A DNA stretch of 45,498 nt, taken from positions 1-45,498 of the forward strand of contig JAJZBL010000006.1 in assembly GCA_021798935.1 (NCBI GenBank), read 5' to 3'. Origin of the DNA: Microcaldota archaeon (GTDB lineage: Archaea; Micrarchaeota; Micrarchaeia; Micrarchaeales; Micrarchaeaceae). Of the stretch, positions 7,126-23,044 are shown piece by piece; the stretch's first letter is position 1; every line of letters starts with the position of its first letter. The position numbers and the translations under genes are program-made. The notes under the pieces were generated by a model. The model saw only the letters and a list, made by a program, of their open reading frames with translations. It had not been told where the DNA came from and did not search any database.

Positions 7126-7198
7126 TGGGGCTGCCGAGATTTGGACTCGGATTACTAGCTCCCTAAGCTAGCAGTCTACCAGGTTAGCGTACAGCCCC
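7126..7198 (-). tRNA. tRNA-Pro-like gene, anticodon AGG, structurally unusual
   Basis: The minus strand folds as a 73-nt tRNA. The acceptor stem is GGGGCTG/CAGCCCC, the anticodon stem CTAGC/GCTAG with loop TTAGGGA, the T stem CCGAG/CTCGG, and the discriminator is A. CCA is not encoded. The anticodon AGG would read proline codons. Three features are abnormal. A34 is essentially absent from archaeal tRNA-Pro. The T-loop begins T-C instead of T-T (no U55). The D stem forms only G11-C24 and a T-G wobble, with 10-25 and 12-23 mismatched. A TATA-like element lies about 30 nt upstream and a T-rich run follows, so it looks transcribed. It could be a specialised or decaying tRNA. Confidence 0.65.
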
Positions 7199-19844: not shown

Positions 19845-19953
19845 GCAGGGGTGGCAGAGTCTGGTCTGACCGGGTGATAGGTCACAGAAAAATGCGCAGG
19901 ACTTAAGATCCTGTGGCTTAGCGCCTTCGTGAGTTCAAATCTCACCCCCTGCA
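19845..19953 (+). tRNA. tRNA-Leu, anticodon TAA, with a 25-nt D-loop intron
   Basis: The acceptor stem is GCAGGGG/CCCCTGC, the anticodon stem CAGGA/TCCTG with loop CTTAAGA (TAA), followed by a long variable arm (GGC/GCC) and T arm GTGAG-TTCAAAT-CTCAC; discriminator A. The D-loop carries 25 extra bases. Removing 19866-19890 restores a standard leucine D arm: A14, G15, G18, G19, T20, then A21 and a GCA/TGC stem. The gene is 109 nt long; the mature tRNA would be 84 nt. Confidence 0.93.
19866..19890 (+). other. Non-canonical tRNA intron at position 20/21 with BHB-type structure
   Basis: Exon bases TCTG (19860-19863) pair with CAGA (19885-19888) as the 4-bp central helix. GTC (19864-19866) is a 3-nt 5' bulge. 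TGACC/GGTCA (19867-19871/19880-19884) is the inner helix, and AAA (19889-19891) is the 3' bulge. Cutting each bulge after its second base removes exactly 19866-19890 and leaves a normal D-loop. On the exon side the helix is only GCA/TGC with an internal loop, so this is a relaxed BHB of the kind cut by broad-specificity archaeal splicing endonucleases. Confidence 0.85.
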
Positions 19954-22940: not shown

Positions 22941-23044
22941 CGGGCCCGACGGGATTTTCATGTTTGCTTTTTATGGCAAACAATTTGAACCCGTGACCAT
23001 CAGCTTAGAAGGCTGCCGCTCTATCCAAGCTGAGCTACGGGCCC
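22941..23044 (-). tRNA. tRNA-Arg, anticodon TCT, with a 29-nt T-loop intron
   Basis: On the minus strand: acceptor GGGCCCG/CGGGCCC, D arm GCTC/GAGC, anticodon stem CAGC/GCTG with TCT in the loop, T stem ACGGG/CCCGT and discriminator G. The T-loop is interrupted by 29 bases. Removing 22955-22983 leaves the standard loop TTCAAAT. The gene is 104 nt long and the mature tRNA would be 75 nt. CCA is not encoded. Confidence 0.94.
22955..22983 (-). other. Non-canonical tRNA intron at position 59/60 with a strict BHB motif
   Basis: Read on the minus strand: the T stem ACGGG/CCCGT is the outer helix. TTCA pairs with TGAA as the 4-bp central helix. AAT is the 5' bulge, and TGTTTGC/GCAAACA is a 7-bp inner helix closed by an 8-nt loop. 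A second AAT is the 3' bulge. Cutting both AAT bulges as AA|T removes 29 nt and restores a 7-nt T-loop. This fits the classical hBHBh' geometry exactly. Confidence 0.92.

Follow-up and report, generated by a model that had tools for sequence, protein, structure and literature searches.

We analyzed a 45,498-nt stretch of Micrarchaeota DNA (the window) and found that its tRNA-Arg(TCT) gene (23044..22941, minus strand) is interrupted between T-loop nucleotides 59 and 60 by 29 nt, which, judged from the sequence, are almost certainly a protein-spliced archaeal tRNA intron of known class. The gene is an ordinary member of that class, as position 59/60, bulge-helix-bulge (BHB) splicing, the breadth of the epsilon2 endonuclease and the ARMAN introns have already been published. 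The broader T-loop pattern described below is worth a systematic survey.

The tRNA-Arg(TCT) gene and its intron

The minus strand reads GGGCCCG-TA-GCTCAGCTTGGATAGAGC-G-GCAGCCTTCTAAGCTG-ATGGTC-ACGGG-TTCAAA, followed by the intron TTGTTTGCCATAAAAAGCAAACATGAAAA and then by T-CCCGT-CGGGCCC-G, so that the insert lies 3' of the sixth base in the seven-base T loop (features are listed in Table 1). The BHB is complete, with a central helix of 4 bp, an outer helix of 5 bp, an inner helix of 7 bp and 3-nt bulges. The intron at 22955-22983 and the hBHBh' geometry given in the original prediction (ACGGG/CCCGT, TTCA/TGAA, two AAT bulges and a 7-bp inner helix) were thereby recovered exactly, base for base.

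Table 1 Features of the tRNA-Arg(TCT) gene and of the second intron-containing tRNA gene in the window
Feature	Position	Strand	Details and support
tRNA-Arg(TCT) pre-tRNA gene with intron, 104 nt	22941..23044	-	discriminator G at 22941, CCA not encoded; cmscan RF00005 32.3 bits
5' exon, 61 nt, tRNA positions 1-59	22984..23044	-	intronless ortholog in G001
Intron, 29 nt, TTGTTTGCCATAAAAAGCAAACATGAAAA, position 59/60	22955..22983	-	comparison with relatives, ARAGORN/BHB script
3' exon, 14 nt, positions 60-73	22941..22954	-	ARAGORN/BHB script
T-stem 5' strand ACGGG (BHB outer helix), partner 22949-22953	22990..22994	-	
T-stem 3' strand CCCGT (BHB outer helix)	22949..22953	-	
Central helix 5' strand TTCA (T-loop 54-57)	22986..22989	-	phylum-wide covariation
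Central helix 3' strand TGAA, within intron	22957..22960	-	covariation
5' bulge AAT, predicted cut AA^T	22983..22985	-	bulge statistics
3' bulge AAT, predicted cut AA^T	22954..22956	-	bulge statistics
Inner hairpin TGTTTGC-CATAAAAA-GCAAACA, 7 bp	22961..22982	-	fold; C-G to U-G in G002 (L128), pair kept
tRNA-Leu(TAA) with ~24-25 nt D-loop intron near 20/21	19845..19953	+	TCTG/CAGA central, TGACC/GGTCA inner helix; intronless relative L294

In its unspliced form, the gene scored only 32.3 bits against Rfam and was not called as a tRNA by ARAGORN, whose intron options did not recover it either. Removal of the 29 nt in silico restored the loop TTCAAAT, as had been expected, and gave a 75-nt sequence with a full acceptor stem that ARAGORN recognised as tRNA-Arg(tct); this sequence matches the intronless gene of a genome of the same genus (G001). 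A script was run over all intron positions and lengths of 8-79 nt, which required a 4-bp central helix and kept a cut if ARAGORN recognised the remainder, and 59/60 was the sole BHB cut that restored a tRNA. Owing to AAAT repeats on either side, the sequence by itself would allow the intron boundary to shift by a few bases, and the BHB rule was used to place it at 59/60.

The minimum-energy fold of the pre-tRNA (-48.4 kcal/mol, z -5.9) contained the T-stem and the 7-bp inner hairpin. The fold program left the 4-bp TTCA/TGAA helix unpaired, but comparative data back its pairing. Among shuffled 29-nt inserts, the 4-bp central helix arose in 1.35%, and its combination with a 7-bp inner helix in 0 of 100,000.

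Introns of the source genome and of Micrarchaeota

The source genome is a Micrarchaeota metagenome assembly (MAG) of 857 kb in 10 contigs. We read ~45 distinct tRNA genes from stretches around tRNA matches, part of the intron assignments being made by inspection rather than by script, and found introns in ~23 of them, with at most one recognised per gene. Twelve occupied the canonical anticodon-loop site. The survey for introns outside 37/38 that the original prediction had proposed yielded ~11, of which 7 were located in the T loop: Arg-TCT, Arg-CCT, Arg-TCG, Lys-CTT, Ala-GGC and Cys-GCA at 59/60, and Leu-CAA at ~58/59. The others were found in the D arm (Ser-GCT, Leu-TAA and Gln-CTG) and at ~30/31 (Ser-CGA). 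Within the window, two of the five tRNA genes carry non-canonical introns, as had been noted. The second is the D-loop intron of tRNA-Leu(TAA), which forms a relaxed BHB with no contiguous outer helix. In G001, G002 and G007, the orthologous gene is interrupted in the same place, by introns that differ in sequence. ARAGORN recovered three of these five genes; thus, a standard gene finder overlooks essential tRNAs in Micrarchaeota.

Some further observations were made on the tRNA genes of this genome. The tRNA-Trp gene (L029, C10:110279-110415) has an anticodon-loop intron of ~64 nt with GATGA-like motifs, possibly a C/D-box guide RNA by analogy with other archaea. One tRNA-Tyr gene occurs at two contig ends (L010 and L011, at the ends of C5 and C9), and therefore these contigs probably adjoin. 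I34-tRNAs have been described as absent from Archaea (PMC8266599). A tRNA-Pro at 7126-7198 of the window (minus strand) has the anticodon AGG and one tRNA-Leu (L038, C10:123951-124048) has AAG, and the tRNA genes read included neither Pro(GGG) nor Leu(GAG). Each of the three genomes of the genus retains A34, and Pro(AGG) is present in five further Micrarchaeota genera; CCC and CTC codons are rare yet used. The sole PF00383 deaminase found (L291:125-661, C3:64824-65360) appears dCMP/cytidine-deaminase-like (HAE...PYCTRC) and, from its sequence, is not clearly a TadA.

Search for tRNA-Arg(TCT) gave a match in 59 of the 60 genomes searched. Among the 39 genes classified, 25 carried an intron at 59/60, 5 an anticodon-loop intron and none both, while 9 were intronless. 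The 59/60 introns of these genes were 12-43 nt long, and their inner sequences were mostly unrelated; a T-loop intron of 32 nt interrupts tRNA-Arg(TCT) in G032 (L143). In the same genus, flanking homology is still recognisable around the intronless gene of G001. G002 shares the intron but differs from the source genome at two intron bases, one change turning an inner C-G into U-G; its exons are identical to those of the source genome and its flanks ~79% identical. Because most other genera carry an intron at this site, loss in G001 appears no less likely than gain in the source genome and G002.

The original prediction also suggested that this genome is unusually rich in small non-canonical introns. 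The richness itself stood, but it is not peculiar to the genome: the strict T-loop-intron pattern GGGTTCAA-N(6-36)-TGAAANTCCC was detected in 157 of the 301 genomes scanned, all of them Micrarchaeota, with up to five matches per genome, and the reversed pattern gave zero in every row. Intron richness is a lineage trait of Micrarchaeota, in line with the epsilon2 endonuclease. The matches listed comprised 140 distinct introns with a median length of 29 nt and with bulges that were mostly AAA/AAT and AAT; their inner helices had 3.0 contiguous pairs compared with 0.63 in shuffles (p ~0.0005). The common central helix was TTCA/TGAA. When the T loop read TTCG (position 57 = G), the intron arm was CGAA in 69 of the 76 matches listed, only part of which were checked as tRNA, and TGAA (G-U) in 7. 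The match of CGAA with TTCG shows directly that the two strands of the central helix covary. In the source genome, Cys(GCA) has TTCG/CGAA, and Lys(CTT) keeps TCCA/TGGA together with its two genus orthologs, so that compensatory change maintains the helix as TTCA/TGAA, TCCA/TGGA or TTCG/CGAA. It should be noted that the TCCA pattern scan was noisy, several matches resembling coding DNA and the reversed control being non-empty, and hence the TCCA evidence is limited to the Lys orthologs of the own genus.

On the basis of these data, we tentatively suggest, as one possibility, that the T loop (59/60) serves as a phylum-wide acceptor site for tRNA introns in Micrarchaeota. Any insert ending in UGAA(A/N) would pair with the near-universal UUCA and become spliceable, and introns may have undergone repeated gain, exchange and precise loss at this site, perhaps through reverse splicing or copying between tRNA genes. 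No report of phylum-wide T-loop use was found in the literature searched, which did not include a key study of ARMAN tRNA introns, so that this is weak evidence of novelty.

With regard to its origin, the tRNA-Arg(TCT) intron could be a recent copy from a different tRNA within the cell and not an inherited intron that diverged in place; this reading is compatible with splicing, but we regard it as rather unlikely. Close pairs of T-loop introns were more frequent within a genome than after shuffling of labels (8 vs 2.0, P<0.001), and Thermoproteales offer a precedent (PMC4033280, PMC4090602). This likeness fits either copying or gene conversion between tRNA genes, but the introns of one genome also share composition and pairing constraints, which confounds the comparison by raising within-genome similarity; moreover, none of the other introns read in the genome was a close copy of the one in tRNA-Arg(TCT). 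Pairs of loci with the same or nearly the same T-loop intron were observed within G026 (C1:114583 and 276901, identical) and within G183 (C15:226 and C20:1482), and these pairs are candidates for recent intron copying.

Splicing enzymes and the fate of the insert

The source genome encodes RtcB and one splicing endonuclease of 396 aa (L031:859-2049). The latter matched ARMAN-2 EndA (4fz2) over nearly its full length (E=3.5e-158, 62.5% identity) and keeps all nine residues checked (ARMAN-2 Y236, H251, K282, Y160, K161, R275, W384, K228 and S252), including the catalytic Tyr/His/Lys, the bulge-holding Arg/Trp pair and the ASL Tyr-Lys described for the ARMAN-2 type (PMC12397907). By homology, it is an epsilon2 enzyme, a single chain of three units. 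This type cleaves both canonical and relaxed BHBs (PMC6379350; PMC4033280). Relatives of the protein came from genomes labelled Micrarchaeota, Marsarchaeota or Mancarchaeum; most of these are MAGs, and Candidatus Micrarchaeum sp. A_DKE is among them.

We infer the following course of cleavage, ligation and processing. The T arm of the pre-tRNA would fold into the BHB with the T-stem as outer helix; the conserved T-loop UUCA would pair with UGAA near the 3' end of the intron, whose hairpin would form the inner helix. The epsilon2 endonuclease would then cut both bulges (AA^U), and ligation of the exons, most likely by the genome's own RtcB, would give the 7-nt T loop UUCAAAU. As tRNA folding and end processing normally require an intact T arm, splicing is probably early.

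Two readings without splicing were considered, and both were rejected, given that the genome yielded no second Arg(TCT) gene, that the exons are conserved and that the BHB is beyond chance. That the gene is a decayed pseudogene with a random 29-nt insertion, tRNA-Arg(UCU) coming from another gene, would explain why it escapes ARAGORN as written; it is very improbable, considering the identical exons of G002 between diverged flanks, the substitutions in its intron that preserve pairing, and a BHB of a quality never reached by shuffled inserts. It is just as hard to credit that the insert is retained in a functional tRNA with an extended T arm. The T-stem and hairpin would make a stable arm, but the T loop required for D-loop contact would be lost, the insert is dispensable in G001, unrelated sequences occupy the same BHB site elsewhere, and the genome encodes splicing enzymes. 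A group I or II self-splicing intron was rejected, since it needs a catalytic core of hundreds of nucleotides, as against the 29 nt here, and cmscan gave no Rfam intron match for the region.

Comparison with known systems

The intron described here has the same geometry as canonical 37/38 introns, both being cut past the sixth base of a seven-base loop. Position 59/60 is among the tRNA intron positions already listed for archaea, and the non-canonical BHB introns of that list share both insertion site and BHB geometry with ours (PMC4090602). The published cases are mostly from Crenarchaeota/Nanoarchaeota, whereas here the site is used in several tRNAs per genome in Micrarchaeota. The 140 distinct introns among the matches listed offer a large natural data set on how a broad-specificity epsilon2 endonuclease reads non-canonical BHBs. 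As a single fixed site is occupied, empty or differently occupied from genome to genome, the gain and loss of introns can be traced directly.

Another close system is that of ARMAN-1 and ARMAN-2 (Micrarchaeum), which belong to the same phylum and have tRNA introns and an orthologous three-unit epsilon2 endonuclease (PMC12397907, PMC6379350, PMC4033280; PDB 4fz2, 9w2k), although the genome is a different one; both have been named as having multiple-intron tRNAs (PMC4033280). Permuted tRNA genes of Thermofilum pendens and Cyanidioschyzon merolae involve the same 59/60 T-loop junction, that of archaeal permuted tRNAs, and BHB-type processing (PMC3218864, PMC3978253), but the exons of tRNA-Arg(TCT) are in normal order. 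Finally, the tRNA intron expansion in Thermoproteales (PMC4033280, PMC8450103) likewise features many non-canonical introns per genome and similar introns in different tRNAs; there, the endonuclease is (alpha beta)2 and a gene may have up to three introns, in contrast with at most one recognised per gene in the source genome.
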